NCBI RefSeq assembly: GCF_030005555.1
Contig: NZ_JASCQG010000012.1
Coordinates: 62,001 to 126,000 of the forward strand
Direction: 5' to 3'
DNA: 64,000 nt
From: Empedobacter sedimenti
GTDB taxonomy: Bacteria; Bacteroidota; Bacteroidia; Flavobacteriales; Weeksellaceae
Shown here: in pieces, positions 27,513 through 46,079 of the stretch
Numbering within the stretch: position 1 is the stretch's first letter
Layout of the letters: the number at the start of each line of letters is the position of its first letter
The notes under the pieces: generated by a model
Told to the model about the DNA's origin: nothing
The model's input: the letters and a program-made list of their open reading frames with translations, nothing else
The model's database searches: none
Translations under genes and position numbers: made by a program

Positions 27513-27545
27513 AAAAGAGAATCCAATTTAGGATTCTCTTTTTTA
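27513..27545. terminator. Bidirectional terminator ending the polysaccharide operon
   Basis: A 12-bp perfect stem (27513-27524 with 27531-27542) with a 6-base loop and flanking A- and T-runs lies between the convergent carboxylase and sugar-transferase genes. Confidence 0.88.
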
Positions 27546-28118
27546 TTTTTTGAATATTGTTTGAAACATATAAATCAAGTCTTGTTTAAAACTCCAATTC
27601 TTTACATATTCTACATTAATCTTGACTTTATCTGGCCAAAGAATTTCATCATTGTACTTAATCGGATCATCAACTTCTGAAAGTAATTCGTCTTCTTTTC
27701 TGTACTTTAACTGAGCTGGACCTGTAATACCAGGTTTAACTTTGAGCATTATTCTATCCTCTCCAATCAATTTATCTGCATAACCAGCAACATCAGGACG
27801 AGGTCCTACAAAGCTCATTTCTCCTTTTAGGATGTTAAATAATTGCGGTAACTCATCTAGCTTATAATCACGAAGAAATTTTCCAAATTTTGTAATCTGA
27901 TGCTCATCTGTTATGATTGAAGATTGTGAAAAGCCTTTCATGGATCTAATTTTATACATCTTGAAAGTTTTACCTTCACGTCCAATCCTATTTTGAACAA
28001 AAACACCAAACTGGTTGGTATCTAAAGAACTTACGATTACTAACAAAACAATTAATCCCACTAAAAAAATTAGTAGGATTAATGCAAGTATATAATCAAA
28101 TATGTTCTTTAAGATCAT
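27543..28118 (-). CDS. Undecaprenyl-phosphate sugar phosphotransferase (PglC/WcaJ-type)
   Basis: A 191-residue monotopic phosphoglycosyltransferase. It has one N-terminal hydrophobic re-entrant segment (YILALILLIFLVGLIVLL), the QNRIGREGKTFKMYKIRSM motif, the catalytic Asp-Glu in KLDELPQLFNIL and the signature MSFVGPRPD. It transfers a sugar-1-phosphate to undecaprenyl phosphate at the inner membrane, starting a repeat unit. It is the last gene of the long minus-strand polysaccharide cluster. A different class of initiating enzyme lies at 31402-32496. Confidence 0.93.
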   Translation of the reverse strand: MILKNIFDYILALILLIFLVGLIVLLVIVSSLDTNQFGVFVQNRIGREGKTFKMYKIRSMKGFSQSSIITDEHQITKFGKFLRDYKLDELPQLFNILKGEMSFVGPRPDVAGYADKLIGEDRIMLKVKPGITGPAQLKYRKEDELLSEVDDPIKYNDEILWPDKVKINVEYVKNWSFKQDLIYMFQTIFKK

Positions 28119-28123
28119 TTCAA

Positions 28124-30607
28124 TTAAAAGAATTTACTTTTAATTCGAGAAGCTAGCCTTTTAACTTTACCAAATGATGAATTATCAAAATCCTCATCAC
28201 CTGAAAAATATCCATAGCCATATCCGTAACCGTATCCATAACCATATCCGTAACCGTATCCATAACCATAACCGTAACCAGTTTTAATTTGGAAATCATT
28301 AAATATAATTCCGACATTAGACACTTCACCTTCATCGTATTTATTAGAGATAGCCGTAATAAAGTTTTTCTCTGAATAATTGTAACGAATAACGTATAAT
28401 GTACAATCAGCATGACGCATCAAATCGTAAGAATCCGTAACCAATCCAATTGGAGGTGAATCAATTATTATGAATTCATACTTTTCTTTCAACTCAGCAA
28501 ATAACTGATCCATTTTGTTACTCAAAATTAATTCAGATGGATTTGGAGGAATTGGACCTGCCGTAATAATATCCAAATTAGGTAGAATTGTACGTTGAGT
28601 AATATGATTTAAATCTAACTCTCCTGCTACAAAGTCAGAAACTCCAGTTTTATTATTAATATTAAAATCGTCAAAAATCTTTGGTTTACGTAAATCTAAT
28701 CCAATTAAAACAGTCTTTTTATCCATTGACCCAATTGAACTTGCAATATTCATTGCATTGAAAGTTTTTCCTTCTCCACCAATAAAGGAAGTAACCAAAA
28801 TTGTTTTGTTCTTATCATCTAAACCAGGGCTCTTGTATAAAAACTTAAGGTTAGAACGTATCGATCTAAATGACTCTGAAATTCCTGACTTCGGATTATT
28901 AATTACGACTAAAGGTGAATTATCTCCTAATGGACCAACTAAACCAACAATAGGAATATGCGTACGAGAAGTAATGTCTTTTAGTACACGTACTTTAAAA
29001 TCTAATAACTCTTTAATAATCACATAAATTAAAGGAATTAAGAATCCGATTGCTAAGGCAATTAAATAATTACGTTTTGGGTCTGGGTAAATAGATCCTT
29101 GGCTTTGATTTTTAGCAGGATCAATTACAGAAATATCTGATACAATTGATGCTAAAGATAAATCTGTCGTATTTAATTGATTAATTAAATTTGAATACAA
29201 TGTACTATTCAATTCAAAACCTCTATTTGCCTCAACGAATTCTATTTCTTCATAAGGTAAATCTTTCGCTTTAAACTCATTTTCAGACAATTTACCATTA
29301 ACTTGAGCTAAATCTGTATTTAATTTTTGTAAATGAGCGTTAACTACATTTGTAATATTATTTCTTGCTTTAGCTATTTGTCTATCAATCTCTCTGATTT
29401 CATCAGTGTTAGATTTATAAACTTTTAACATTTGCTGTCTTTGATTCTCTAGATCATCGATTTGATTAACATTTGTCATATAATAAGACACGTCAAGTCC
29501 TGCAATATTAAGCGCAATTAAATTATCAACACTACTTGATTTCTTAGGCATCAAACGATGTAAAGCGGCAATTTTTTCTTCAACTTCAATACGTTCTTTG
29601 TCTAACTCTGTTAATTTACCTAAAATATCCCCCTTTTTTGTATCAAAGTTATAAACACCTGTTTTATTCTGTAACTGCTGTAAATTATTAGTTGCACTAT
29701 CTAACTTAATTTTAACATCAGCAATCCTTTCTTTCAAATACTTTCTTGTCTGAAAAGCAGATAAATTTCTTTCAGCTAACTCATTTTCGATTAAAACTTG
29801 AACCGAATTATTTAATAAATCAACTGCTTCGTTTAAACTTTCCGCATTTTTTGATACTGAAATAATACTTGCAATTTTAGACGCATTTGTTACATTAAAG
29901 TTTTGTGTTGCTCTTCCAGTAGCTTCTTTAAGTTGAACTAATCTAAAACTAAATTTACTTTCAGAATAAGGAATCTGGGTTTTTGTAACCATTAATTTAT
30001 AGTCTTTCCCCTCAATCCATTGATTATAACGAGCAACTTTTGGCAAGTTAAGATCAGCATTTCTAATGATACTATCTTTAGAAAAATTATAAAGCGAACC
30101 TCCTCTATTTTCTATTTTAAAGTAAAAAGAATGATTATCTTTTGGTTCAACCAATACTTCTACGTTCGCTATTTGAGCGTGAGTAGTATCAATATGAACA
30201 TTATAAGGAGCATCTAACTTGTAAACATTCGATTTTTTAAGTTTTCCTTCTTCTGTATAATAAATATATGATTCTGTTCTTTTTACAACTTTTTCATTGT
30301 GAACACGCGAAGATAAAGTATAGGATAATCCATCTACTTTATTTGCACTACCTCCCCAAATAAAGTTAATTGAGTTTGACGCTAAAGCATTATTAGCAGA
30401 ACTATTGTCTTTAATCTTAAAAGTAGTACTCGCACTATAAATTTTATTGAACTTATAGTTATTTAAGTAATAAGCAATTCCAAGTGCAATTAAAATACAA
30501 ATAATGTATAAATACCAAGCATTTAATATCCTTGGTATAAGCCTTTCTACATCGATAAAGTCAGAGGTTTTCTTTCCTTTCGATTTATTATTATTTAATT
30601 CTGTCAT
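28124..30607 (-). CDS. Wzc-like polysaccharide co-polymerase/tyrosine kinase with Gly-Tyr repeat tail
   Basis: An 827-residue inner-membrane protein. It has an N-terminal Wzz domain with a first membrane segment (about residues 30-50), a long periplasmic coiled region, a second membrane segment near residue 520, then a cytoplasmic BY-kinase domain. That domain has Walker A (FIGGEGKTFN, about 605-614), Walker A' (GLDLRKPKIFDD) and Walker B (FIIIDSPPIG). Such proteins control chain length and export with Wza. The usual C-terminal tyrosine cluster is replaced by 12 consecutive Gly-Tyr pairs at residues 777-800, followed by 27 basic-ending residues. It lies 6 bases before the sugar transferase gene. 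Confidence 0.92.
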   Translation of the reverse strand: MTELNNNKSKGKKTSDFIDVERLIPRILNAWYLYIICILIALGIAYYLNNYKFNKIYSASTTFKIKDNSSANNALASNSINFIWGGSANKVDGLSYTLSSRVHNEKVVKRTESYIYYTEEGKLKKSNVYKLDAPYNVHIDTTHAQIANVEVLVEPKDNHSFYFKIENRGGSLYNFSKDSIIRNADLNLPKVARYNQWIEGKDYKLMVTKTQIPYSESKFSFRLVQLKEATGRATQNFNVTNASKIASIISVSKNAESLNEAVDLLNNSVQVLIENELAERNLSAFQTRKYLKERIADVKIKLDSATNNLQQLQNKTGVYNFDTKKGDILGKLTELDKERIEVEEKIAALHRLMPKKSSSVDNLIALNIAGLDVSYYMTNVNQIDDLENQRQQMLKVYKSNTDEIREIDRQIAKARNNITNVVNAHLQKLNTDLAQVNGKLSENEFKAKDLPYEEIEFVEANRGFELNSTLYSNLINQLNTTDLSLASIVSDISVIDPAKNQSQGSIYPDPKRNYLIALAIGFLIPLIYVIIKELLDFKVRVLKDITSRTHIPIVGLVGPLGDNSPLVVINNPKSGISESFRSIRSNLKFLYKSPGLDDKNKTILVTSFIGGEGKTFNAMNIASSIGSMDKKTVLIGLDLRKPKIFDDFNINNKTGVSDFVAGELDLNHITQRTILPNLDIITAGPIPPNPSELILSNKMDQLFAELKEKYEFIIIDSPPIGLVTDSYDLMRHADCTLYVIRYNYSEKNFITAISNKYDEGEVSNVGIIFNDFQIKTGYGYGYGYGYGYGYGYGYGYGYGYFSGDEDFDNSSFGKVKRLASRIKSKFF
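28208..28279 (-). repeat. 72-bp Gly-Tyr codon repeat in the Wzc-like gene
   Basis: Twelve 6-base units encode Gly-Tyr pairs using mixed GGA/GGT/GGC and TAT/TAC codons. Inside it, an identical 24-base unit occurs twice in tandem (28220-28243 and 28244-28267). This is direct evidence of slippage or duplication and predicts length variation between strains without frameshift. Confidence 0.95.
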
Positions 30608-31392
30608 TATATTTTATCAAAGAATAAATAAACACCTAAAATTGTAGCTATTGCTCCCATTACAGTAGTCACAACAGTTAAAGGATTTAGTCCAATTCCC
30701 CATACTTTTTCTTTACGAGGATTAACTACGATGATATCGTTATTCTGAACCCAGTAATACTCTGAATTCATAATTGATTCTTTTGTTAAGTCTACGTAGA
30801 CTTGTTTAGTACCATCTAAATCTGTTCTAATTATACGTACATTCTTAAGATCTGCATATATATTTCCTGATCCAGATTGCGCAAAAGCATCTAATAAAGT
30901 AACATTTTTCTTTGGAGCTCTAAATATACCTTGACTTGCTTCCCCTACAATCGTATATTCTATTCCAGCAAGATTAACATCTATGAAAGTTCCTTTTTCT
31001 TCATAAATCTTGTAAAATTCAGTCTGAATTTTCTTTCTCGCTTCTTCTATCGTAAGACCTTCTAATTTTATTTTACCAATGCGTGGTAATTCAATAGCTC
31101 CGTCTTCACGAACATACACACCATTTCCTCCTTCTACACTATTTCCTCCACTAACAAAATCACTCATGATTCCCATAGAAGCACCCGAAGCAGATGAAAC
31201 ATTGATCAAAATTTGATCATCTTTTTGTATGTGATAAACAGGTTTAGTAAATGCTATTTTACCTTTTTGATCTAATTTTAAATTAGAGTCTGGTTGTATT
31301 AACTGTACATCTTTCAACGAGATACAAGAAAACAAGTTAAAAATAACAATTAGAATAAATGATTTGGATAAGGTTGATTTTAAGTTAAGCAT
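30607..31392 (-). CDS. Wza-like polysaccharide export lipoprotein
   Basis: A 261-residue outer-membrane export protein. A lipoprotein signal ends at Cys23 (FNLFSCISL). The polysaccharide export domain follows (VYHIQKDDQILINVSS), then an SLBB-type domain (YTIVGEASQGIFRAP ... LLDAFAQSGSG). The C-terminal hydrophobic segment (VVTTVMGAIATILGVYLFF) is typical of Bacteroidota Wza proteins. It forms the exit channel together with the Wzc-like protein, whose start overlaps its stop by one base. Confidence 0.93.
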   Translation of the reverse strand: MLNLKSTLSKSFILIVIFNLFSCISLKDVQLIQPDSNLKLDQKGKIAFTKPVYHIQKDDQILINVSSASGASMGIMSDFVSGGNSVEGGNGVYVREDGAIELPRIGKIKLEGLTIEEARKKIQTEFYKIYEEKGTFIDVNLAGIEYTIVGEASQGIFRAPKKNVTLLDAFAQSGSGNIYADLKNVRIIRTDLDGTKQVYVDLTKESIMNSEYYWVQNNDIIVVNPRKEKVWGIGLNPLTVVTTVMGAIATILGVYLFFDKI

Positions 31393-31401
31393 ATTATATG
31401 A

Positions 31402-32496
31402 TTATTTTACTTTCTTTTTATTACTCACAATAACTCTTAATGAGACTACAAAACTAACTGATAATAGAATAAATATCAAAAATAGTTTATTAATTTCAAT
31501 ATTTCTAAAATAATATCCTATCAGGATAAAAATAATATTGATAACAACTAGAATTATAGAGGTTTGTATATGATAGAAGTTAAGTTTTAAAAACTGATGA
31601 TGTAAGTGATTTTTATCTGCAGTGAACGGACTTATTCCTTTCAAAATTCTGATAGAAAATACCGTTATTGTATCCAAAATTGGAATAACAAAAATAAATA
31701 ACAACAATACTGGTGCTGTTTTTAAGCCAAGATTTGATGCCTCACTAACATACAAAAATCTGATTGCCATAAAAGTTAGAATAAACCCAATGACCATAGA
31801 TCCTGTATCTCCCATAAAAATCTTTAACTCTTTTGACAAATTATAACGTCCAAATCCTAGTAAAACTGCAATTGTACTTACCGCCAAAATTCCAATTCCA
31901 TAATCAAAAATTCGATAAAAAATAAATACAAAGCATAAGCTAATTACGATACCAACGCCTGTTGCTAAACCATCAATACCATCAATTAAATTAAAAGCAT
32001 TAATCAAAACAACAAAGACAAAAAGTGTCAACAAAACTCCAATAAAATAAGGAATTTCATAAATACCAAATAATCCTGAAAAGGAATTAATCATAATTCC
32101 TGAACCAAAGATGATTAAAACTGTACTAATCAGCTGTCCATATAATTTTTTATCAGGCGCAACAACAAGTAAATCATCCATTAAACCAATAAAAAACAAA
32201 ATGGTAATTGCTGATAAAAAGAATGAATAATTAACACCTAAATCGGTTGCAAAAATTGAAGTAGAGACTACAATACCGAAAAACAAAGCAACTCCCCCTA
32301 ATGTCGGAATTTTTATGCTATGAGAACTTCTTTCACCAGGAACATCCATCAATTGTTTTTTATACGATATTCTAATAATTTTAGGGATAGAAATTAACGT
32401 AATAATTAACCCGACGAAGAATGCACCAATAATATTAATAAAAATTGGTGAAAGATTAAGATTGTATAGATAATCTAAAATTTTAAAGTTTTCCAT
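31402..32496 (-). CDS. WecA/TagO-type polyprenyl-phosphate N-acetylhexosamine-1-phosphate transferase
   Basis: A 364-residue polytopic membrane enzyme of the MraY/WecA superfamily with about ten membrane segments. Diagnostic motifs are PTLGGVALFFG, the GLMDDLLV aspartate pair, NAFNLIDGIDGLATG, FMGDTGSMVIGF and the HLHHQFL histidine motif. It transfers GlcNAc-1-phosphate or a related sugar to undecaprenyl phosphate. It overlaps the upstream GT2 gene by 14 bases. Confidence 0.94.
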   Translation of the reverse strand: MENFKILDYLYNLNLSPIFINIIGAFFVGLIITLISIPKIIRISYKKQLMDVPGERSSHSIKIPTLGGVALFFGIVVSTSIFATDLGVNYSFFLSAITILFFIGLMDDLLVVAPDKKLYGQLISTVLIIFGSGIMINSFSGLFGIYEIPYFIGVLLTLFVFVVLINAFNLIDGIDGLATGVGIVISLCFVFIFYRIFDYGIGILAVSTIAVLLGFGRYNLSKELKIFMGDTGSMVIGFILTFMAIRFLYVSEASNLGLKTAPVLLLFIFVIPILDTITVFSIRILKGISPFTADKNHLHHQFLKLNFYHIQTSIILVVINIIFILIGYYFRNIEINKLFLIFILLSVSFVVSLRVIVSNKKKVK

Positions 32497-33247
32497 ACTT
32501 TTTCATTCCATTTAACGCCCAAAAAAAAGTGTAATAAGATGATTTAAAAAAGTTCATTTTTAAATACTTTCTATAAACTTCAAATTGTTTAACAGCTATT
32601 TTTAACTTATTTCTTGATACTGAATTATTTCTAATTCTGTAAATTGCTAAAGGTTCAGCTATTGCTCTTGCATATTTTATCTTTTCCAATAAATCGATCC
32701 ACATCGCATGATCTTCTCTTAATTCTGCTTCAGGAAAAGGTATTTTACCTATTCTTTTAGAATCATATACAGAAGTTAGCATTGGTATTGGACAATTATA
32801 TAAAATTCTATTTCTATCTATATTGTCAATAGCTACAAAATCTACTAGCAAAGGATTTAGCTCTTCATCTACTCTTTTATAGCTAGAATAAACCAATTCC
32901 TCTTGATTATTTATTAGAAAACCTATTGATTTATTCAAAAAATCTGGTAGCCATAAATCATCACTATCTATAAAAGTAATAAACCTTCCTTTCGCTAATT
33001 CTAATCCTTTGTTTCTTGCTTCTGATGCTCCTTTATTATTTGATTGTTGAAATAATTTAACTTTATTATCATCAAATGATTTTATGATCTCTACCGAATT
33101 ATCTGTCGAACAATCATCAACTATTATCCACTCCCAATTACTATATCCTTGATTCTTTATTGAGTTATACGTTTCTGTAATGTACTTCTCTGAATTATAA
33201 CAAGGAGTTATAATTGATACTAATTCTAACTCTACTCCCATTTCCAT
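32483..33247 (-). CDS. GT2 family glycosyltransferase
   Basis: A 254-residue GT-A fold enzyme. The nucleotide-binding part is VSIITPCYNSEKYITETYNSI and WIIVDDCSTDNSVEII; the metal-binding motif is TFIDSDDLWLPDFL. A catalytic-base region follows with REDHAMWIDLLEKI. It adds a sugar to a lipid-linked repeat unit on the cytoplasmic face. Donor and linkage cannot be read from sequence. It overlaps both neighbours, so it is co-translated within the cluster. Confidence 0.92.
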   Translation of the reverse strand: MEMGVELELVSIITPCYNSEKYITETYNSIKNQGYSNWEWIIVDDCSTDNSVEIIKSFDDNKVKLFQQSNNKGASEARNKGLELAKGRFITFIDSDDLWLPDFLNKSIGFLINNQEELVYSSYKRVDEELNPLLVDFVAIDNIDRNRILYNCPIPMLTSVYDSKRIGKIPFPEAELREDHAMWIDLLEKIKYARAIAEPLAIYRIRNNSVSRNKLKIAVKQFEVYRKYLKMNFFKSSYYTFFWALNGMKKYGKL

Positions 33248-34350
33248 AATCCGTAAATAGCTTCTTTACTTAAAAAAGTAGTATAGTTACTAAAATTTGA
33301 TTTATGAGCTTGTTTAACCTGAAACCAAAAGAGTAAAAACACTGTATATGAAACGAAACTTAAATAAACAAAGTTTCTCTTAAACTTATCTCCTTTAAAT
33401 GAATAAATTAATCGACCAATTGTTAAACCTAAAAAAACCAAATAAAATCCTGGCAAACGAACCCCGAATATTCCTTTTCCTAAAAAGAAATAAAGCAATA
33501 CTCCAAAAACAAATAAATTTCTGAAATAACAATATAGTTTATCTTCAACAGCGTATTTATTATAAAGGATAATTGAAATAATTGAAATAATCTTAACAAA
33601 ATCACCTACAGCTACACCATCCCCTTGATCATACAATTGACTTTGATAACTCTCAAATTTATCTGCTCCGATAGGCATATATTGCATGATAACTTCTATA
33701 ATAGAATTTAAACCAGTATAAAATCCTATAATAGCAAAAACAACAAGCCATCCAATAAATTTTTCATCAAACTTCATTGGCGCAATCCAATAAGCAACTA
33801 TAAAAATGATAATAGATTCATGAAATTGATATCCAATAGCAAGACAGATCAAAAATTTAATCAAACTACGATCTATAACATATCGAATAGAGTATATTGC
33901 AATTGCATTAGCTAATCCTTGACGAATATGGACATGTTCTTCAAACAAAAAATTAGGCATAGCATAAATAAAAAGGACTAAAAAAGGTAATCCTCCATAT
34001 TTATAAAAAGTAGTTGATTTAAGAATTAAAGAAGTTGAAGCTATTATCAAGGTTAACATTCCGAAATCAAAACCGTAATCTCCTAGAATTTTATTCAATC
34101 CAAGAAATCCTTTTTCCATAATAGCCATTTCAGCAAAACGACTAAATTCTCCCCAACTAACATCAGGAAGCATTCTGAACGTCTTAAAATAAGCTAACCA
34201 GTCTGGACTTAATGCATAACCCAAACCAGCTGTTAAAGCCATAATAAGTACGATCAATATATACAGCTGTTTGCTAACTTCCTTCTTAGAGAACTCTAAA
34301 ATAGAGGCTACTAATAAAAATCCATAGATGAAAAGGTAAATAAAACTCAC
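33232..34350 (-). CDS. EpsG-like membrane protein, probable polysaccharide polymerase (Wzy)
   Basis: A 372-residue protein with about ten membrane segments and no soluble domain. The segment GLGYALSPDWLAYFKTFRMLP and the periplasmic-type loop with EEHVHIRQGLANAIAIYSI match the EpsG pattern (conserved Asp-Trp/Tyr near the first loop, HxRQ...A motif). EpsG proteins polymerise repeat units on the outer face of the inner membrane. It is the only polymerase candidate in the cluster. Confidence 0.82.
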   Translation of the reverse strand: MSFIYLFIYGFLLVASILEFSKKEVSKQLYILIVLIMALTAGLGYALSPDWLAYFKTFRMLPDVSWGEFSRFAEMAIMEKGFLGLNKILGDYGFDFGMLTLIIASTSLILKSTTFYKYGGLPFLVLFIYAMPNFLFEEHVHIRQGLANAIAIYSIRYVIDRSLIKFLICLAIGYQFHESIIIFIVAYWIAPMKFDEKFIGWLVVFAIIGFYTGLNSIIEVIMQYMPIGADKFESYQSQLYDQGDGVAVGDFVKIISIISIILYNKYAVEDKLYCYFRNLFVFGVLLYFFLGKGIFGVRLPGFYLVFLGLTIGRLIYSFKGDKFKRNFVYLSFVSYTVFLLFWFQVKQAHKSNFSNYTTFLSKEAIYGLWKWE

Positions 34351-34355
34351 TTAAA

Positions 34356-35345
34356 TTATAGTTTATATAGTAGGTTAAGGTTAAATAAAGTCATTTTGTA
34401 AAATACTTTTTTCTTAAATGGTAATGATTTTAAATAATTATACTCAAATCGTTTATAGTTTTTAATTTCTTTCTTTGAAATATCGTATTCTTTCAGAAAG
34501 TTTTTCAACTCAATAGTCATTTCATATTTTAACTTTTTATCCTTCACATACGCAACATACGCTAAGTAAGAATAATACCCTTGAACAATTTGAAATCTTT
34601 TCAATTCTTTCACAAATGTATTGTAATTACTTAACTTAAAATAATCTGTCACTTCATTTATCGCAAAAAACATATCCAAACCTTTCTTTGTATGTGACTT
34701 TGTAATAGAATCTTGTCGTTCAAAATATTTATAAAAAGGTTCATTGATCTTTGAAATAATCATAGAATCTAAAACTAATTTCGGAATCAATTCTATATCC
34801 TCGAAATGTATTCCTTTTCTAAATCGATGATTCTCGAACAACGATTTTTTAAAGATTTTATTACATGCAAAGCAACTCATTTCACCAAAAATCGTAAAAT
34901 CTTCTGCCAAAACAATTTTCTCAGATAATTGTGGCGACTGTGGTAAATCACGAAACTCAGTTCCGTTTTCATCCACTTTCACCAAATCACACAAAACAAT
35001 TTCAGATTGATGTTTTTGACTCAAATCATACATCTTTTCTAACATTATAGCATCAATGTAATCATCAGAATCTATAAATGCGATAAATTCTCCTTGTGCT
35101 TTATCAATTCCAACATTTCTCGCATCACTTAATCCTCCATTTTCTTTCTGGATAGAAAGTACACGAGAATCTTTTTCAACGAAATCAGCAATAATTTCTT
35201 GCGAATTATCCTTAGAACCATCATTTACAACAATCACTTCAATTTCTTTCAATGTTTGATTCAAAATCGAATCTAAACATTTCGAAAGATACTTTTCTGT
35301 GTTATAAACAGGTACAATGACTGATATTTTAGGCTGAATTGACAT
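34356..35345 (-). CDS. GT2 family glycosyltransferase
   Basis: A 329-residue enzyme with VIVPVYNTEKYLSKCLDSILNQT, IVVNDGSKDNSQEII and the metal motif FIDSDDYIDAIM. The acceptor region has HFEDIELIPKLV. The C-terminal third is lysine-rich and may contact the membrane or a partner. It adds one sugar of the repeat unit; specificity is unknown. The start overlaps the preceding gene's stop by one base. Confidence 0.92.
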   Translation of the reverse strand: MSIQPKISVIVPVYNTEKYLSKCLDSILNQTLKEIEVIVVNDGSKDNSQEIIADFVEKDSRVLSIQKENGGLSDARNVGIDKAQGEFIAFIDSDDYIDAIMLEKMYDLSQKHQSEIVLCDLVKVDENGTEFRDLPQSPQLSEKIVLAEDFTIFGEMSCFACNKIFKKSLFENHRFRKGIHFEDIELIPKLVLDSMIISKINEPFYKYFERQDSITKSHTKKGLDMFFAINEVTDYFKLSNYNTFVKELKRFQIVQGYYSYLAYVAYVKDKKLKYEMTIELKNFLKEYDISKKEIKNYKRFEYNYLKSLPFKKKVFYKMTLFNLNLLYKL

Positions 35346-36967: not shown

Positions 36968-38110
36968 TTAGTTTAAATATTTTTCGATTGAATTTACTGC
37001 ATTACCCAACTCAAAAGGTAATGTTTTTCCTTCAATGATTTGTTGATATTTTTGAGCAATTTCAGGATTTTGAATAAAATACTTCATTCCAGCATAAATT
37101 GCTTCTTCTTCATTATCGATAATATATCCTAATTCGCCATCATTCAACATTTCTCTAACTCCCGAAACATCTGTTGCTATAATTGGCTTTTCTAAAACCA
37201 TCGCTTCAAACAAAACTGTTGGATAACCTTCGTAACGAGAGGATAAAATATAATAATCTGCCTGAACAAAATAGGGATAAGGATTCTCTTTGAAACCTAT
37301 TAAATGAGCAGTTTCTTCAACTTTTAATTCATCAATCAATTTTTTGATATTCGGAAAATCATAACCGTCGCCAACAATCCAAACTTGATGTTGAAAACCT
37401 TCGTCTAACAATCTGCGATGCGCTCTCAATAGACGATCAAATCCTTTTTGCGGGAAAACTGTTCCAATTGAAACAAATGTTGGTTGATCCGTCTTTTTCT
37501 GAATCTCACAATGTTCTAGTGCTGACTTTTTAATTTCATTGACATCAATTGGATTATAAATCCTAACAACTTTTTGTTTTTTTTCCTCTGAACTTGCTAA
37601 ACCTAAAAATAATTGATTAATCTTTTCTGAAATCACTAGAATTTGATCAAACTTGAAAAAGTTTTTCAATTGCACTGTTGTATATTCAGGAATATTCGAC
37701 AAATCATTGTGAATCCAAACTATTTTTTTAGAAGATTTAATCGGAGAATTCAAGATTTCATCTGCCATTCCATGAATTGCCGCAAACTCTATATCGTATT
37801 TTTTATTTGGTAAAATAAATTTATAAAGCAATTTTGGAAACGATGACAAAATCTTTTGATAAATCACTCGAAAAGCTTTTTGCGGAATATCCTGCGGACG
37901 ATTTGTCGTAATCATTTCACCTTTATTCAAATAATAAATATTTATCCAAGATGGAACATCTTTGAGATATTTACCCGAATAAAGATTTAACAACAAATCA
38001 ACTTCGTATTTATCTGGTGAAAGATTTTTGAGAAAAGTGACCAATACTTTTTCTGCACCTCCATGACGAAGTGATCCAATACGTATTAGTATTTTCTTTT
38101 TAGTTGCCAT
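36968..38110 (-). CDS. GT4 family glycosyltransferase
   Basis: A 380-residue GT-B enzyme. It opens with KILIRIGSLRHGGAEKVLVTFLKNL; the C-terminal site is SSRYEGYPTVLFEAMVLEKPIIATDVSG with the EX7E motif. It is closely similar in layout to the enzyme at 48424-49608 (shared pattern of IRxGSLxxGGAxxVL and LNLYxGxxxKDxP), so the two are probably related paralogues. Substrate unknown. Confidence 0.93.
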   Translation of the reverse strand: MATKKKILIRIGSLRHGGAEKVLVTFLKNLSPDKYEVDLLLNLYSGKYLKDVPSWINIYYLNKGEMITTNRPQDIPQKAFRVIYQKILSSFPKLLYKFILPNKKYDIEFAAIHGMADEILNSPIKSSKKIVWIHNDLSNIPEYTTVQLKNFFKFDQILVISEKINQLFLGLASSEEKKQKVVRIYNPIDVNEIKKSALEHCEIQKKTDQPTFVSIGTVFPQKGFDRLLRAHRRLLDEGFQHQVWIVGDGYDFPNIKKLIDELKVEETAHLIGFKENPYPYFVQADYYILSSRYEGYPTVLFEAMVLEKPIIATDVSGVREMLNDGELGYIIDNEEEAIYAGMKYFIQNPEIAQKYQQIIEGKTLPFELGNAVNSIEKYLN

Positions 38111-39618
38111 TATTTCGCCGTCGATTTTCGTTTGTATAAATAAAAATCTCGACCAGAAGGTTTGAATTTATATATCTTATCTAAAATAGGATTATCAGAT
38201 TTTGCAACATCAGCTATTTTAAATTCCTTGATTAACTCGTAGTCATTATAAATCGACTTATCAGCCAATTCACCTTTAAACATTGGTTTAAAATCTTCTA
38301 ATATATATTTTGGTTTTGCTTTATTGATTAGATTAGAAAAACCAACTTCCTTACCATTTTTTACGATATTTTCTTCCGTTAATCGTTTATCAACTAAACC
38401 GACATAATCAATCACTTTTAACTTAGAAAAATAAGGGATATAACCTGCTGGTTCCAAGAAAATATAATTATTTTTATCTGGCTCTATAGAATCTAAATAC
38501 AAACCTATTTTACGTGCATGATTCCACTCTCCGTGACCTGTAGCAATAGAATGTACTGCTTGATAAGCAGTAAAAGGTATAAAAAAGACAATGAAATAAG
38601 CGATTGATAATATTTTGTATTTTTCTGAATCTAAAACAACTAATATAATTGGTAAAAAAAGACAAATTTGCGGAATCCAATAATACCAATCGAACCACGA
38701 GTTTGCAGCACCAAAAATTATTGTTTTTGTAGTACCAAATAAAAATAAAAACGAAACAACTTTTCGTTTATCAACATTCCATTTTTTGTTTAATAGAACT
38801 AAACAAACCAACGAAATTATAAATAATAAAATGGTTGAAAAATTATAAATAGATGTTGGAAATTTAATCATTCCAAAATAATTTGGACCAAAGAATTTGA
38901 ATTCCGTCCAGCGTTCAAATAATGTTGGATTTACATAATTATTTTTTTTAGAAGTAATGGTATTATTTACAATTTCTCCAAAGTAAAACCAATTAAATGC
39001 TACTGTTGATAAAACAGCTAAAATACCACCAAACATCAATGCAATATTCCATTTACGTTGTTGAATTACATCATAAATAAATAATAATCCTAAGAAAATA
39101 CAAGTGTCAATACGTGTCCAAAGAATTAGAACTGGCAATAAAATAAATGCCCAACTTTTTCTCTCTACAAAACCATATTTGATTAATGCCATGTAAAAAA
39201 AGAAAAGCATACCGAATTCCATTCCTAAAATGGACATTTTTATAGCTGGAGGCAAAAAACTAACAAATAATATGAATAGAATTATACGACTAGTTGAACT
39301 TAAAAATAGTTTTCCAAGCCAATAAATACCAATTGTTAGTAGAATTGTATTAAAAATAAGTAAAGGATAAATAAAATTTCCTTCTCCGAAAATAGATTGA
39401 AAAATTACCCCTACAAAAACATATAAATGAGTTGTTGATGCCGAAATTTTTTCAGCCCCATTGTATCCGTACACCCCATATTCGATAATATTTCGTGCTA
39501 CTCTCCAAGATATCAACGCATCCTCTTGAATATGTCTTGTAAAGAAAAAAACTGATTTTAATAAAATAATCAGAATTGAGGCAATAAAGATCTGACTTTT
39601 ATTCAAAGTATCTTTCAT
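38110..39618 (-). CDS. GT-C membrane glycosyltransferase resembling mycobacterial AftB
   Basis: A 502-residue protein with about ten membrane segments and a C-terminal periplasmic-type domain. The first loop reads EDALISWRVARNIIEYG then a YN..E...ASTTHLY pattern, close to the AftB pattern DDGLI.LRTVRN.L....FN.GE.V.A.TST. Asp33 (with Glu32) is at the catalytic acidic position. The C-terminal domain has KVIDYVGLVDK, matching AftB's VID.IGLV. AftB is a polyprenyl-phospho-arabinose-dependent arabinofuranosyltransferase. I started it at 39618; a longer ORF to 39738 overlaps the HAD gene. The adjacent donor-synthesis genes support the call. Alignment is from memory. Confidence 0.7.
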   Translation of the reverse strand: MKDTLNKSQIFIASILIILLKSVFFFTRHIQEDALISWRVARNIIEYGVYGYNGAEKISASTTHLYVFVGVIFQSIFGEGNFIYPLLIFNTILLTIGIYWLGKLFLSSTSRIILFILFVSFLPPAIKMSILGMEFGMLFFFYMALIKYGFVERKSWAFILLPVLILWTRIDTCIFLGLLFIYDVIQQRKWNIALMFGGILAVLSTVAFNWFYFGEIVNNTITSKKNNYVNPTLFERWTEFKFFGPNYFGMIKFPTSIYNFSTILLFIISLVCLVLLNKKWNVDKRKVVSFLFLFGTTKTIIFGAANSWFDWYYWIPQICLFLPIILVVLDSEKYKILSIAYFIVFFIPFTAYQAVHSIATGHGEWNHARKIGLYLDSIEPDKNNYIFLEPAGYIPYFSKLKVIDYVGLVDKRLTEENIVKNGKEVGFSNLINKAKPKYILEDFKPMFKGELADKSIYNDYELIKEFKIADVAKSDNPILDKIYKFKPSGRDFYLYKRKSTAK

Positions 39619-39636
39619 AGTATTGGTTTGGTCGTG

Positions 39637-39644
39637 CAAATATA
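39637..39644 (-). promoter_or_regulatory. Possible internal -7 promoter element
   Basis: On the minus strand TATATTTG matches TANNTTTG in the 31-base gap between the HAD and GT-C genes, one of the few gaps in the cluster. TTTA lies at the -33 distance. It may give extra transcription of the downstream half. Confidence 0.4.
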
Positions 39645-39649
39645 GCCCT

Positions 39650-40240
39650 TTAATTAAAATATCTAAAATTAGATTGTGTTGAAATAGAGAACATCGCTTC
39701 ATCTCCTTTTGTATCACCAAAAGAGATAATTTCATCATAAAAAGTTAAATCAATTTCATTTTCGATTCTATTCTTTTTTTCATGATAATTACAATTTGGC
39801 GAAGCAAATTTACCTGTAAAAAAACCATTATCATCAAACTTTGCTTTTGTACAAATTAGTCCCATTCCATAATAATCAGCAAAGGGTTTTACCCAAAAAT
39901 CGATAGAAGCTGAAACGATAAACTTGTCATTATAATTACTTAATGATTTTATATATTCATCAGCTTTTGAATAAATTAATTCTTGATGATTTTTTTCGAA
40001 ATAATTTTGAGCTAATCGATTAATTTCAACATAAGATTTTCCTTTAAAAAATTTCGAAATGAACATTTCTTTTACAAAACCAGCATCAATTATCTTCAAT
40101 TTCGAAACGATAAATAATGGAATAAATATCAGATAATTAATGAAGTAAACTTTAGGAAAAGAGAATTTCAAAAAATCGAATAAGGTATCTTTACAAGTTA
40201 ATGTACCATCAAAATCAAAAAGGTATAAATTGCGATTCAT
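39650..40240 (-). CDS. HAD-superfamily phosphatase (subfamily IB)
   Basis: A 196-residue phosphoserine-phosphatase-like enzyme. The nucleophile motif is LFDFDGTLTCKDTL (Asp9/Asp11), motif II is FIVSASIDFW, and motif IV is ISFGDTKGDEAMF. Because it sits beside UbiA-, DprE1- and DprE2-like genes, it probably removes the 5'-phosphate from polyprenyl-phosphoryl-5-phosphoribose before epimerisation. That step is inferred. Its start overlaps the SDR stop by one base. Confidence 0.85.
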   Translation of the reverse strand: MNRNLYLFDFDGTLTCKDTLFDFLKFSFPKVYFINYLIFIPLFIVSKLKIIDAGFVKEMFISKFFKGKSYVEINRLAQNYFEKNHQELIYSKADEYIKSLSNYNDKFIVSASIDFWVKPFADYYGMGLICTKAKFDDNGFFTGKFASPNCNYHEKKNRIENEIDLTFYDEIISFGDTKGDEAMFSISTQSNFRYFN

Positions 40241-40965
40241 TACATTTTCAATTTTTTGAAAATAAATTCAGGAACATTACGAATTATCATCATAATTCCC
40301 CACCACAAAAATGTTACATAAACAACATTTTTCTTTTTGACATAAGCCTTATAAATAATATTCGCAGCTTGATCTGGTTGAGCAGTTAATGGTTTTGGTG
40401 TTTCGATATCAGCTGTCATTTGTGTATCCATAAAACCAGGAATAACAGTCATTACATGAACTTTTTTATGAAATAAATAATTTCTCAAACCTGCTAAATA
40501 GGCTGTAAAACCAGCTTTAGCAGATCCATAAATAAAATTACTTTGACGACCACGTTCCCCCGCAACAGATGATAAACCAATGATAGTTCCCGAACCTTTA
40601 GCCTCAAATTTCTTCGCAAAATAATTCATCAAAACAATTAATTTTGAGTAATTAATTTCTACAATTTGCTTTGTATTCCAATCATCGTACAAACCTTCTT
40701 CCGAATTTTTGCCTAAATAACCAGCAGCACAAAAAAGTAATTCAGAATCAATATGGTCTAGCTTAGAAAAGTCATTCTCTTTTGTTAAATCAAAATGTAC
40801 AATTTCACATTTTTGCTCATACTTAGCAAAAAAGTGTTGTGCCAACTTTTTTGTTTTTTCAATATTTGACGTAAACAAATAAACCATCGGAAAACGTTTC
40901 CCTTCATGTAAAACCTTTTCTACGAAAGCTACTGCAACATCTGAATTAGATCCTATTATTATCAT
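40240..40965 (-). CDS. dprE2: Decaprenylphosphoryl-2-keto-ribose reductase-like SDR (DprE2)
   Basis: A 241-residue short-chain dehydrogenase. The active-site region reads LSSVAGERGRQSNFIYGSAKAG, with catalytic Ser, Tyr and Lys (YxxxK), nearly identical in pattern to mycobacterial DprE2. The N-terminal cofactor loop is IIIGSNSDVAVAF. DprE2 reduces the 2-keto intermediate made by DprE1, giving polyprenyl-phosphoryl-arabinofuranose. Four bases overlap with the dprE1-like gene (ATGA), indicating coupled translation. Confidence 0.87.
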   Translation of the reverse strand: MIIIGSNSDVAVAFVEKVLHEGKRFPMVYLFTSNIEKTKKLAQHFFAKYEQKCEIVHFDLTKENDFSKLDHIDSELLFCAAGYLGKNSEEGLYDDWNTKQIVEINYSKLIVLMNYFAKKFEAKGSGTIIGLSSVAGERGRQSNFIYGSAKAGFTAYLAGLRNYLFHKKVHVMTVIPGFMDTQMTADIETPKPLTAQPDQAANIIYKAYVKKKNVVYVTFLWWGIMMIIRNVPEFIFKKLKM

Positions 40966-42284
40966 TTCTGTTTAAATCTATTGATACGTTCGTTCTGCAT
41001 TGATTCAAATTTCGGTGAATCAACATGTTGTAAATAATCTGTAAGCGCAGGATTAGACATTGCATCTTTCGTACGATAAATGTGCCCTCCGAAATCCATT
41101 ACAATTTTATCTAAATTATTTATTAACTTTTCCAATTTATCATTCACTTTAAAATCCAATGCCAAAGTATATCCTTTCATAGGAAAAGAATTATAAGCTT
41201 GTTTATTATTATCTCCGAACAATTTTAGTACAACTAAAAAAGAACCATTTCCACTAGCAGCAATTGTTTCCAAAATCTGACGCATTCCTTCTTTTCCTCT
41301 TTCTTTTGGAATAACAAATTGATATTGAATAAATCCATTTTTCCCATAAATACGATTCCAATTATGCACCGCATCTAACGGATAAAAAAATGTTTCGTAA
41401 TCCACATAGTTTTTTAAATGTTTTTTACCTTGTTTATTAAAATATAACCAATTGAAAATCTTGATTGATAAAGGATTCAACGCGAAATTTGGAAAGAAAA
41501 ATGGAATATTTAAGTTTAATTTTTTCTTAATTTTTAAAGGATTCTTTTTGAATTTTTGAGGTAATTCGTCTAAGGTTGCATGTTCGCCACGCAACATAAT
41601 CGATTTTCCTAAAGAAGTGCCTTTTTGTAAGCAATCTAACCACGCAACATTATACGTCCAAGATTCAGAAGATTCAAACAACTCGAAAATTTCATCTAAA
41701 TTCTTTGCCTGTATTGCTTCGTTCCGAATATAAGCTGTCTCAATTGGTTTCAACATAAAACGTGCAGACAAAATAATACCCGTCAATCCCATTCCTCCTA
41801 TCGTTGACCAAAATATGTCAGAATGTTCATTACGCGAACAGTGTAAAATTTCTCCGTTATCAATCATTAAATCGAAATGAATTAAATGATCAGAAAAACA
41901 TCCATCAATATGATGATTTTTACCATGAACATCTGATGCAATTGCTCCACCAACCGTAATAAATTTGGTACCTGGAGTGACTGAAATAAAATATCCAGCT
42001 GGAATAGAAACTTCTAAAATATCTGATAATAAAACACCTGATTCGACCTCTATAATTCCATGCTCACGATCAAAATCGATAAATTTATTCCATTTTGAAG
42101 TTGAGATAATTGTATTTTGTAATGATGCATCTCCATAACAACGACCATTTCCTCTAGCAATTAATTCTTCATTAGATAAAACAGCTTCCTGAAACTCAAG
42201 AATTGTTGTTGGTGACACAACATTCGCTTTTATAGATGGATAAAGTCCCCAATTGGCTACTGGAGTTAATTTTTTATTTTCCAT
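40962..42284 (-). CDS. dprE1: Decaprenylphosphoryl-ribose 2'-oxidase-like FAD enzyme (DprE1)
   Basis: A 440-residue FAD-linked oxidase of the VAO family. The FAD-binding part has ARGNGRCYGDAS and the DprE1-specific TVGGAIASDVHGKNHH. The C-terminal substrate domain has SFLVVLKLFGDNNK and the conserved lysine in YRTKDAM (about Lys406). DprE1 oxidises C2 of polyprenyl-phosphoryl-ribose. By remembered alignment, the position of mycobacterial Cys387 is Ala375 here (YTLALDF). It overlaps the UbiA-type gene by 11 bases. Confidence 0.88.
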   Translation of the reverse strand: MENKKLTPVANWGLYPSIKANVVSPTTILEFQEAVLSNEELIARGNGRCYGDASLQNTIISTSKWNKFIDFDREHGIIEVESGVLLSDILEVSIPAGYFISVTPGTKFITVGGAIASDVHGKNHHIDGCFSDHLIHFDLMIDNGEILHCSRNEHSDIFWSTIGGMGLTGIILSARFMLKPIETAYIRNEAIQAKNLDEIFELFESSESWTYNVAWLDCLQKGTSLGKSIMLRGEHATLDELPQKFKKNPLKIKKKLNLNIPFFFPNFALNPLSIKIFNWLYFNKQGKKHLKNYVDYETFFYPLDAVHNWNRIYGKNGFIQYQFVIPKERGKEGMRQILETIAASGNGSFLVVLKLFGDNNKQAYNSFPMKGYTLALDFKVNDKLEKLINNLDKIVMDFGGHIYRTKDAMSNPALTDYLQHVDSPKFESMQNERINRFKQK

Positions 42285-43149
42285 TGTTAAAATAAATCAA
42301 TAATACATAACAAATTCCCCACAAAACAATCAAGATTTGCAGAAAATGATCTTTAAAAATCAATTTAGTAGGGGATTCTGTTTTTGCGAATACAAATGTC
42401 TGTTGCAAATAGCGCAAAACAGCTGCAAAAACAAAGACAAAGGTATAAATAATATAATGATGAAACTTGGATTGTGTTTCTGGCGAAAGGATAAACATCA
42501 TATAACAAATCACAGCGACAGTACAGGTTATAGCTAAGGCCGAATTAAGAAAATTGAGATTATAACCATCTAATGATTTTCTTGTAACACCCTCTAATTC
42601 TGCATTAATTAATTCTCCTCTACGTTTTCCTAAAGCTAAAATCAAAGCCAAATCAAAAACCAATAAAATGGTCCAATCTGTTACGACTAATCCTGTCATA
42701 TAACCACCTACAAAGACTCTTAACAGAAATCCAAAAGCAATAATCATAACATCTAAAATTGCTATTTGCTTTAATTTGAATGAATAAGCTAAATTCATAA
42801 AAAAATAAACAGCTACAAGTATTGCGACTTGTTTGTTCGCAAAAAAGAAAACTAAGGCACTTGTTATTGCAACTAAAAAAAAGAATAGGATTAATGCATT
42901 ATTCTTTGAAATTTTTCCGCTTGCAAGTGGACGATTTTTCTTCTCTGGATGTTTCTTATCTTTCTCTATATCAACATAATCATTGATAATGTAAATACTA
43001 CTCGCTACAAATGAGAAGATCAAAAATCCATAGAATGATTCAACAAAAAGGCTAGCATTCAGCAAATTACCTGAAAAAAATATCGGTAAAAAAACAAATA
43101 AGTTCTTTACCCATTGATTAACACGTATAAGTTTTAAATAGTTCAGCAT
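42274..43149 (-). CDS. UbiA-family prenyltransferase, probable polyprenyl-phosphate phosphoribosyltransferase (DPPR synthase)
   Basis: A 291-residue membrane enzyme with about nine helices. Motif 1 is IINDYVDIEKDKKHPEKKNRP (NDxxDxxxDxxHPxKxxRP) and motif 2 is YSFKLKQIAILDVMIIAFGF. These follow Rv3806c-type DPPR synthases, which transfer phosphoribose from PRPP to polyprenyl phosphate, rather than quinone-pathway UbiA. Also seen are GKRRGEL and LRVFVGGY. It is the first committed step of the arabinose cassette with the three genes downstream. Confidence 0.85.
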   Translation of the reverse strand: MLNYLKLIRVNQWVKNLFVFLPIFFSGNLLNASLFVESFYGFLIFSFVASSIYIINDYVDIEKDKKHPEKKNRPLASGKISKNNALILFFFLVAITSALVFFFANKQVAILVAVYFFMNLAYSFKLKQIAILDVMIIAFGFLLRVFVGGYMTGLVVTDWTILLVFDLALILALGKRRGELINAELEGVTRKSLDGYNLNFLNSALAITCTVAVICYMMFILSPETQSKFHHYIIYTFVFVFAAVLRYLQQTFVFAKTESPTKLIFKDHFLQILIVLWGICYVLLIYFNNGK

Positions 43150-43985
43150 TATTTATTTAATTTCCAGTCCAGATAAACCTGATTAGACTTTTCTCTTATC
43201 AAAACCAAATCATCAATATAATTGATTAATGGCTTTATTTTAGTTGAATAATTTTCTTCTACAAATTTTAACAAATCTGTCCATTCTTCATAAGATAACT
43301 CAGCATAGTTTTCGCAAGCGTAAATCTCTTTCTCTTTAGCATTAAGTCTTGCTTGATAGTTTAAACGACTAATTGGTGTATTGTATTGTGACTTATATAC
43401 TTTCGAAAAAATATCCTGTTTGTACAATAGTTCTTTTTGAGTTAACGTAATAAAACTTCCTTTTATATTTGATGGAAATGGAACTGAAATATGATAAAAA
43501 TACAATTTGATATTATTCTCAAATTGAGATAAAATTGATTGAAAAATCGTATTTACTTTAATATGCTCTAAATGCCAATCTATTGGAAATGGAATATAAA
43601 CTTCTGTAAATTCATTAGTTGATACTAGTTTTTCTAAATCCGAGTATTCATCATAACTTGAAGAAACAATCAAATCAAAACTTACTTCTTTTTGCAAATT
43701 CTTCAATTCTGAAAGTCGAACTTGTTTATTCGTTTCATTATAATTATTCCCTAAAAATTGAAAATAATAAACTGTTGCGTTCTTTTTAAGTAAAATTTGA
43801 CTATTCCCAATCCATTCATCATCTGCATGAGGCACCAAAATAAGAGGTTTAGAATCTGAATTAATCTTCATTTCTTCCATATTTTGATAAGATTGTATTT
43901 TATTCATTTTAAATTGAATAAACCACTTTATCAAATAACGTAAACGTCTAAATTTCAGTTTTACTATTCTTAATTTTTGATTCAT
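43149..43985 (-). CDS. PIG-L/LmbE family deacetylase
   Basis: A 278-residue protein with the zinc-binding motif VPHADDEWIG (His, Asp, Asp) typical of LmbE/PIG-L N-acetylglucosaminyl deacetylases. A second histidine motif is PIDWHLEHIKVN. The first 45 residues are basic and not part of the core domain. In this setting it may remove an acetyl group from an amino sugar of the repeat unit. Substrate inferred only from context. It overlaps both neighbours (1 and 4 bases). Confidence 0.85.
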   Translation of the reverse strand: MNQKLRIVKLKFRRLRYLIKWFIQFKMNKIQSYQNMEEMKINSDSKPLILVPHADDEWIGNSQILLKKNATVYYFQFLGNNYNETNKQVRLSELKNLQKEVSFDLIVSSSYDEYSDLEKLVSTNEFTEVYIPFPIDWHLEHIKVNTIFQSILSQFENNIKLYFYHISVPFPSNIKGSFITLTQKELLYKQDIFSKVYKSQYNTPISRLNYQARLNAKEKEIYACENYAELSYEEWTDLLKFVEENYSTKIKPLINYIDDLVLIREKSNQVYLDWKLNK

Positions 43986-45140: not shown

Positions 45141-46076
45141 TTACTTTTTCCTTAAAATATTTTTCAAATCCTTACTCAAAATTACATTGAATTTCTCAAC
45201 ACCAATTTGATTCAAGTGATTGTTATCAAAAAAATCTGTCGAATCTTTTAATTCAACTAAATTTTGATAATTCTTATAATTACCTAATTTACCTAAAAAT
45301 TGATCTACTTCTTCATTATTATTAATCGAATTATAAAGTGTTTTTGTTATTGGTGCTTGAATAATGTATACATCAATTCCTTTACTTTTTATAAAAGCAA
45401 TATTATTCACAAACTCCTCTTTCTGATTTTCTCTTAAATCCCATTTTGAGATTTTCTCATCATTAAAAATATTTTTTCTGAATTTAGTTTCTACATATCC
45501 AGTTGGCGAAATGTATGTATCTTCTCCTTGTTGTGTCACTTCACTAAATGTTTTATTCAAGCCAAAAATTTGTCGAAATCCAGAAAAAATTAGAGTATTG
45601 TAAGCTAATAAATTATGAATTTCGTTCGCCATTTTGATCGAATTAATATCAATTTTATTGTTACTCAAAATATCCAGAGAAGACTCAACTCCATCTATAT
45701 TCATCGTTCCTGCATAAGCCTCATATACAACTAGTTTTGGATTAATTTGTTCCAAATATTGATGCAAAAGTACTTTTGTATTAATTGGTGTTTGTGCGCT
45801 TGAACCTAAATTGAAGGCAGAAATTCCATCTTTTTTCAAAATTCTTGGATCAACTCCACGATAAGCATGCGAAGAACCAACAATTAAAACATCTACATTT
45901 TTGGTCTTTTGAGCATCTTGCATACGTGTAAATGTATGTCCGTAACACCCCATACAGCTTCTTACATTTTTAGACATATATGATGGAAGAAAAGAACTCC
46001 AAAGTGGCATTATTACAAGATAGAAGATAACTGCAAATAACCCAAATAAACCTATATTAATTAAAAATTTTTTCAT
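45141..46076 (-). CDS. SGNH-type O-acyltransferase partner protein (DltD/AlgX-like)
   Basis: A 311-residue protein with one N-terminal membrane anchor (INIGLFGLFAVIFYLVIMPLW) and an extracytoplasmic SGNH hydrolase fold. The nucleophile block is LIVGSSHAYRGVDP and the catalytic Asp/His block is FFDNNHLNQIG. In this position, next to an MBOAT protein, such proteins complete transfer of an acyl group onto an exported polysaccharide. A CxxC motif (RSCMGCYG) near residues 41-44 is unexplained. Confidence 0.82.
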   Translation of the reverse strand: MKKFLINIGLFGLFAVIFYLVIMPLWSSFLPSYMSKNVRSCMGCYGHTFTRMQDAQKTKNVDVLIVGSSHAYRGVDPRILKKDGISAFNLGSSAQTPINTKVLLHQYLEQINPKLVVYEAYAGTMNIDGVESSLDILSNNKIDINSIKMANEIHNLLAYNTLIFSGFRQIFGLNKTFSEVTQQGEDTYISPTGYVETKFRKNIFNDEKISKWDLRENQKEEFVNNIAFIKSKGIDVYIIQAPITKTLYNSINNNEEVDQFLGKLGNYKNYQNLVELKDSTDFFDNNHLNQIGVEKFNVILSKDLKNILRKK

Positions 46077-46079
46077 GAT

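Follow-up and report, generated by a model that had tools for sequence, protein, structure and literature searches.

The stretch of DNA analysed here (64,000 nucleotides from a contig of Empedobacter sedimenti, family Weeksellaceae, phylum Bacteroidota; hereafter, the window) carries five consecutive, co-oriented open reading frames (ORFs) that fill positions 38110-43149 of its minus strand. They encode a UbiA-family protein, a DprE1-like oxidase, a DprE2-like reductase, a HAD phosphatase and a GT-C membrane glycosyltransferase (Table 1), and lie in a polysaccharide cluster of Wzc-, Wza- and WecA-like, EpsG, GT2, GT4, hexapeptide acetyltransferase-like, SGNH-like and MBOAT genes. An earlier note, made from the letters of the DNA, had read the five genes as a complete decaprenyl-phosphoryl-arabinose-type donor pathway joined to an AftB-like transferase. 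The five-gene arrangement was found as described, profile searches confirmed the donor families, and the gene content supports a complete donor pathway of this type.

The UbiA protein scored 223 and 203 bits against the NCBIfam models for decaprenyl-phosphate phosphoribosyltransferase, compared with 61 bits against an unnamed prenyltransferase model and 45 bits each against heme O synthase and proteobacterial UbiA. It matched the solved DPPR synthase 8j8j in the PDB at 6e-37, and its catalytic motifs NDYVDIEKD (at 56) and KRRGEL (at 175) fit the NDxxDxxxD and KRxxEL types. By profile score it thus passes the comparison with quinone-pathway enzymes that the earlier note had proposed (223 bits versus 45-61), and a quinone-pathway identity was rejected (about 45 bits to the quinone and heme enzymes). 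The DprE1-like protein matched the DprE1 model at 1.7e-124 and the solved DprE1 4aut at 5e-86, and it retains the HGKN, QYQFV, KLFG and TKD blocks in alignment with solved DprE1. The DprE2-like protein matched the DprE2 model at 1.4e-44; its best model was an unnamed short-chain dehydrogenase/reductase (SDR) at 2.8e-70, and it has the SDR motif YxxxK as YGSAK. As UbiA (scores over cut-offs of 223/234, 203/207 and 158/474), DprE1 (416.5 bits; cut-off 500, NF053785) and DprE2 (152.6 bits; cut-off 250, NF053786) all fall under the curated NCBIfam equivalog cut-offs, we regard them as divergent members of their families. The HAD protein exceeds the cut-off of TIGR01488 (HAD-IB; 74.1 bits, cut-off 45), misses the narrower TIGR01490 (95.0 versus 98.3 bits) and has the nucleophile motif DxDGT as DFDGT. 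Three of 16 DprE1 loci fetched from other Bacteroidota families (L197, L204 and L205) encode UbiA with a fused HAD domain, a link between the phosphatase and the pathway. Together, the separate UbiA and HAD genes of the window correspond to the PPPRS with phosphoribose phosphatase of three-component pentofuranose systems.

These matches and motifs make it very likely that the four genes form a donor pathway of the decaprenyl-phosphoryl-arabinose type. As to the step chemistry, UbiA would join phosphoribosyl pyrophosphate and polyprenyl phosphate to polyprenyl-phosphoryl-ribose 5-phosphate, from which HAD would presumably remove the 5'-phosphate. DprE1 would then oxidise polyprenyl-phosphoryl-ribose at the 2' position, and DprE2 would reduce the 2'-keto group to give arabinose. 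At the position of Cys387 of Mycobacterium tuberculosis DprE1, which we take to be the residue attacked by benzothiazinones, all 21 family DprE1 sequences checked have alanine (TLALDF), and natural insensitivity to benzothiazinones is therefore expected.

The longest ORF of the GT-C gene spans 39738-38110. Because this frame shares its first 40 codons with the HAD gene and the matches of most homologues begin only at residue 25-50, we place the start at the likelier ATG at 39618. The closest named relatives by GT-C are Empedobacter falsenii (92% identity), E. tilapiae (87%) and E. stercoris (86%), followed by Chishuiella, Vaginella and Faecalibacter (81-83%). Direct searches pointed to AftB faintly. 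The single protein matched only AftB in the PDB (phmmer, E 0.35), and a profile of 21 family GT-Cs (A1) scored AftB (E 1.1) about the same as two interleukin-3 chains, so AftB was not singled out. The NCBIfam AftB profile (NF041481, which we take to be family GT89) had the GT-C gene as its only match in the whole 3.2-Mb genome, at 16 bits and E 0.0035. With a curated cut-off of 1050 bits, identity as an AftB equivalog was rejected, and none of 100 family genomes held a match above this cut-off. At E up to 1, the same profile marked 33 places in these 100 genomes, 30 of them GT-C (22 checked by coordinates and 8 by fetched loci) and 3 elsewhere. Pfam found DUF6044, under its cut-off, in 5 of the 21 GT-Cs.

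A strong link to AftB runs through a second profile (A2) of six other AftB-like Bacteroidota proteins, none from A1, which were picked for matching A1, the AftB profile or one another. A1 and A2 aligned with an hhalign probability of 99.6 and a pairwise E of 7e-25 over 404 columns, and A2 matched the solved AftB 9dlf at 2.9e-18. Judged from these alignments, the resemblance of the GT-C to AftB is real but remote, with a strong bridge through other AftB-like proteins. In AftB, D62 is catalytic and T91, E172, R221, R372 and T274 contact the donor (excerpts of PMC12041299). Residues D62, T91, E172, R221 and T274 align with D33, T62, E134, R169 and T220 of the GT-C, which are invariant in 21/21 GT-Cs of A1, and a divergent GT-C (L240; 38% identical) keeps the same motifs. 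Both motifs named in the earlier note were present. The acidic first loop is E32-D33, with D33 at the position of the catalytic D62, and the C-terminal VID..GLV block is VIDYVGLVD; AftB has RVIDQIGLANP within 536-557, in a part of the alignment that is below significance by itself. The GT-C thus probably works like AftB at the donor site, though outside the AftB equivalog, and a link between the transferase and the arabinose donor is likely.

In three genomes of the window genus (G121, G125 and G109) and one of genus g28 (G049), the GT-C slot between HAD and GT4 is occupied, on the opposite strand, by a membrane protein of 451 amino acids that we call alt. The clusters are otherwise the same and contain the same donor genes; in G064, the slot is empty. 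Comparison of the GT-C and alt profiles found no homology (hhalign probability 0.5, E 0.11), and alt had no match in the PDB up to E 10. Of 13 alt members, three gave PMT_2 signals, all weak (9.5e-5 at best). Alt is probably another GT-C, with a putative role as a glycosyltransferase. The exchange recurs in a second setting. In Chryseobacterium, alt directly follows a TMEM260-like gene in 9/9 alt-bearing genomes and has DUF1697 and KdsA-like genes on its other side in 6/6 of these that were examined, and this is the slot held by the GT-C in other Chryseobacterium.

Across the family, the two transferases exclude each other and accompany DprE1. Of 269 DprE1-positive genomes, 210 have only the GT-C, 40 only alt, one both and 18 neither, whereas among 27 DprE1-negative genomes 25 have neither, one has the GT-C (G005) and one both (G013). 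Either transferase is therefore present in 251/269 genomes with DprE1 and 2/27 without. This tally uses a "strong" GT-C cut of 1e-30, which drops four weak matches (G053, G064, G087 and G137) that are included among the 217 family genomes counted at E up to 0.001. Fisher's test gave 1.9e-32 for the exclusion and 1.4e-22 for the dependence on DprE1, values that ignore kinship. The two genomes with a transferase but no DprE1, G005 and G013, are 79% and 80% complete, and G013 is 7% contaminated. In each of the two genomes that hold both types (G007 and G013), one copy is visibly damaged. An internal stop interrupts the alt of G007, whose match starts at residue 87. In G013 (L247:10533-14378), the GT-C frame enters unrelated sequence after about 165 residues and adjoins an intact alt gene, which reflects either a damaged gene or an assembly join. 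At the level of genera, with weak GT-C matches in g5 and g9 scored absent, 19 have GT-C and DprE1, 2 only GT-C, 5 only DprE1 and 7 neither (p 0.005); without the five genera known only from genomes less than 90% complete, these counts are 16, 0, 5 and 7 (p 0.0007).

Four genera (g1, g2, g21 and g28) contain both transferase types. We placed the transferase labels on a DprE1 tree of all 12 DprE1-positive g1 genomes, all three of g28 and three outgroup rows. The alt label needs four changes on this tree, of which well-supported branches force three, and it clusters no more strongly than when labels are shuffled; the sister pair G121 and G104 carries different transferases. Read from this tree, the pattern is one of repeated exchange on a constant donor, although DprE1 itself may recombine. 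A third transferase was sought in the TMEM260 slot of eight DprE1-positive genomes with neither type (G172, G251, G075, G100, G128, G148, G004 and G024), and no ORF of at least 90 amino acids was found there before the next slot gene. In other Bacteroidota families, four loci (L193, L194, L195 and L200) have a conserved membrane family of 526-557 amino acids beside or one gene from the DprE1 cassette. Its members are 37-48% identical among themselves and have no BLAST match to the GT-C; they are possibly a third transferase class. In genus g9, L191:6346-13655 contains alt and two further AftB-like GT-Cs (555 and 525 amino acids) in one polysaccharide cluster, which suggests several pentofuranose transferases in one locus.

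The earlier note had considered such a pathway unusual for flavobacteria. This did not hold, as DprE1 is present in 269/296 sampled family genomes and 24/33 genera, and extracytoplasmic pentofuranose addition in Gram-negatives has been published (excerpts of PMC11127046). A strain-specific import from actinobacteria was likewise rejected, as each of the 269 positive genomes has one DprE1 match; the DprE1 proteins of other family genomes are 64-94% identical, among the matches listed. In the phylum, 79/392 genomes have DprE1. The GT-C was found at E up to 0.001 in 217/296 family genomes and by profile in 12/392 phylum genomes, seven in the family and five distant. Among the 16 DprE1 loci fetched from other Bacteroidota families, 13 have a DprE2-like gene next to DprE1, and 9 include a UbiA-like gene in the fetched stretch.

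Adjacency of donor genes and transferase, which the earlier note took as a sign of one dedicated pathway, is true of the window and of the Empedobacter and Vaginella loci examined but not in general. Of the first 20 GT-C loci fetched, four (genera g1 and g28, which include Empedobacter and Vaginella) have the cassette next to the GT-C; in the other 16, which come from other genera, it is outside the fetched stretch. In Chryseobacterium and several other genera, the cassette loci fetched have an OmpA-family gene on one side of the cassette and a NifS-like gene on the other. The GT-C is beside a TMEM260-like gene (Pfam 1.8e-67) in 12/20 loci, directly in 11 and one ORF away in L030, and in several of these a DUF1697 and then a KdsA-like gene come after it. 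The neighbour names KdsA, NifS, Kbl, LepB, thioredoxin and cysteine synthase are by-eye readings of the sequences, and Pfam backs no more than the wider families of two of them (DAHP_synth_1 and Aminotran_5).

GT-C or alt also occurs in clusters with Wzc-, Wza-, WecA- and GT2-like genes in six further genera, namely g2 (L248), g5 (L244), g9 (L191 and L242), g14 (L247), g25 (L245) and g26 (L240, L250, L252 and L253). All of these loci but L245 have a recognisable EpsG-like gene, and L252 ends at a contig end after the WecA-like gene; three other g2 loci (L243, L249 and L256) are not in such a cluster. As the transferases lie in polysaccharide clusters of several genera, a surface polysaccharide is favoured as the acceptor and is the likelier one, while the TMEM260/KdsA setting leaves protein or lipopolysaccharide (LPS) as possible acceptors. 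Outside the cytoplasm, the GT-C would transfer arabinofuranose, through a putative linkage, to the product of the Wzc/Wza/WecA/EpsG/GT2 cluster around it, a surface polysaccharide. The transferase slot would act as a switch, with alt taking the place of the GT-C in relatives and using the same donor. Overall, we consider it probable that a lipid-linked supply of D-arabinofuranose feeds one of two exchangeable extracytoplasmic transferases, which would decorate a surface polysaccharide.

Several observations weigh against this reading. Chryseobacterium and several other genera carry the GT-C by the TMEM260-like and KdsA-like genes, outside a polysaccharide cluster, and 18 of the 269 DprE1-positive genomes carry neither transferase. 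The Fisher values are uncorrected for kinship, and the genome counts are not independent. No flippase was found in the locus, as the cluster proteins scanned gave no Wzx/MATE match, and a profile search of the whole genome gave no GtrA match; the genome has six places with Polysacc_synt (MATE/Wzx-type), all on other contigs. Of the 100 genomes searched with the AftB profile, 49 carry the GT-C, and in 19 of these the profile fails to detect it; two of the 14 controls (Corynebacterium glutamicum and Lactococcus lactis) also give matches below its cut-off, so lone weak matches to it are not specific. Finally, the second phosphate-binding arginine of AftB, R372, has no evident counterpart. In this region, the GT-C cannot be aligned directly to AftB, and the bridging homologues used for the comparison have arginine where the GT-C reads FDWYYW.

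The acceptor could instead be an envelope molecule conserved throughout the family, such as the LPS core or a glycoprotein, served by the same donor pathway and GT-C. The near universality of the cassette in the family and the TMEM260-like neighbour of the GT-C in 12/20 loci, in several with DUF1697 and KdsA-like genes, speak for such an acceptor. However, the GT-C or alt is inside a polysaccharide cluster in the window genus, in g28 and in six further genera, and frequent exchange of the transferase between close relatives fits an antigenic surface glycan better. We regard this alternative as unlikely, though it deserves to be kept in mind. It is improbable that the GT-C uses another polyprenyl-phosphoryl sugar, with the arabinose donor serving something else and the association due to kinship. 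This would fit the 16/20 fetched loci in which the cassette is not a neighbour, the remote homology to AftB (E 0.35) with R372 unmatched and the fact that the AftB profile also finds other GT-Cs. Against it stand the five invariant AftB donor-contact residues, the single gene block of the window genus and the rarity of a transferase without DprE1 (2/296 genomes, both about 80% complete). Delivery of ribofuranose or another pentofuranose in place of arabinofuranose appears very improbable. DprE1 and DprE2 do score under the NCBIfam equivalog cut-offs, and a characterised GT-C of this kind accepts both ribofuranose and xylofuranose (excerpts of PMC11127046), but both genes are present, adjacent and co-oriented, and DprE1 keeps its HGKN, QYQFV, KLFG and TKD blocks.

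By gene content, the order of chemistry is the same as in the mycobacterial decaprenyl-phosphoryl-arabinose pathway (Rv3806c, DprE1 and DprE2) with AftB. The phosphatases differ: the window has a HAD-IB protein, and M. tuberculosis has Rv3807c, a protein with no relationship to HAD phosphatases (excerpts of PMC11127046). UbiA, DprE1 and DprE2 are homologous to their mycobacterial counterparts and the GT-C remotely so to AftB, with which it agrees at five of the six donor-site residues. Unlike the mycobacterial pathway, this one has alanine at the Cys387 position of DprE1, no GtrA-type gene that we could find and a GT-C far under the AftB cut-off.

The transferase of Pseudomonas type IV pilin arabinosylation is presumably TfpW. 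That system shares with ours a Gram-negative polyprenyl-phosphoryl-arabinose donor, but its acceptor is pilin (pathway in excerpts of PMC11127046). Kelly et al. 2024 established extracytoplasmic pentofuranose addition in Gram-negatives through a PPPRS, a HAD phosphatase, a MATE flippase and a GT-C, with DprE1/E2 versions predicted for arabinofuranose and systems with several GT-Cs or epimerases reported (excerpts of PMC11127046). The O1/O2 system of Citrobacter youngae (GT136, three-component) resembles ours in its Gram-negative host and in having a PPPRS and a HAD phosphatase; three-component systems also share DprE1/E2, in the predicted arabinose versions, and an extracytoplasmic GT-C that acts on finished polysaccharide (same excerpts). 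In contrast to these systems, as the excerpts present them, HAD is here separate from UbiA, the locus has no flippase, and the transferase is AftB-like, swappable for an unrelated protein and away from the donor genes in 16/20 loci. Three-component pentofuranose systems are thus already known, and what is novel here is the exchange of two unrelated transferases. The main text of PMC11127046 does not mention the strings Chryseobacterium, Bacteroid or Flavobacter. Among its best-ranked matches, our literature search found neither the family-wide occurrence in Weeksellaceae nor the two-transferase exchange described, and nothing pertinent on arabinofuranose or DprE1 in Weeksellaceae.

An ORF at 43149-43985 of the window is without a Pfam match and contains a PHADDEW motif that by eye resembles PIG-L/LmbE deacetylases. 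Three clusters of the same genus (L021, L061 and L063) have homologues 60-61% identical to it; in L022, L040 and L062 no homologue was detected. At 45141-47522, an SGNH-like gene (weak Pfam match) and a DltB-like MBOAT gene form a pair that suggests O-acylation of the polysaccharide. The pair was found in clusters L023, L040 and L061 and not in L022, L062 and L063. Two transferases of the initiating type, Bac_transf (PF02397) and WecA-like (PF00953), are present in one cluster at 27543-32496.

Table 1. Genes of the donor and transferase block and of the adjoining polysaccharide cluster, in window positions.
Feature	Position	Strand	Evidence
UbiA-family polyprenyl-phosphate phosphoribosyltransferase (DPPRS/PPPRS-like), predicted	42274..43149	-	NCBIfam profiles, PDB match, motifs
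DprE1-like flavin adenine dinucleotide (FAD) oxidase	40962..42284	-	NCBIfam profile, PDB 4aut, motif blocks
DprE2-like SDR reductase	40240..40965	-	NCBIfam profile, YGSAK motif
HAD-IB phosphatase	39650..40240	-	NCBIfam profile, DFDGT motif, HAD-UbiA fusions elsewhere
AftB-related GT-C membrane glycosyltransferase, 502 amino acids	38110..39618	-	Profile bridge, donor-site residues
GT2 of the surrounding polysaccharide cluster, presumed acceptor assembly	34356..35345	-	Homologues 49-54% identical near the transferase in other genera
EpsG-family protein, probable polymerase of the cluster	33232..34350	-	PF14897 8e-45
WecA/TagO-like initiating transferase (Glycos_transf_4)	31402..32496	-	Pfam
Wza-like polysaccharide export protein	30607..31392	-	Scan of the cluster proteins
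Wzc-like chain-length/tyrosine-kinase-type protein	28124..30607	-	Pfam

For the Weeksellaceae, we lean towards a family-wide lipid-linked arabinofuranose pathway whose final transferase switches between an AftB-like GT-C and the so far unclassified alt, the latter a new arabinosyltransferase family. The switch would take place at one gene position, in two or more unrelated genomic settings, and would alter the way a single surface glycan is decorated from a single donor. That two unrelated proteins replace and exclude each other at this position makes alt, on genetic grounds alone, a candidate for such a family. If this is true, periplasmic serotype switching would extend to non-homologous transferases swapped on a constant donor, and AftB relatives of about 500 residues would be at hand for comparison with the solved AftB chain of 669 residues. 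Common environmental and opportunistic bacteria would then build D-arabinofuranose into their envelope with homologues of antituberculosis drug targets, and a whole bacterial family would be awaiting a simple sugar analysis.

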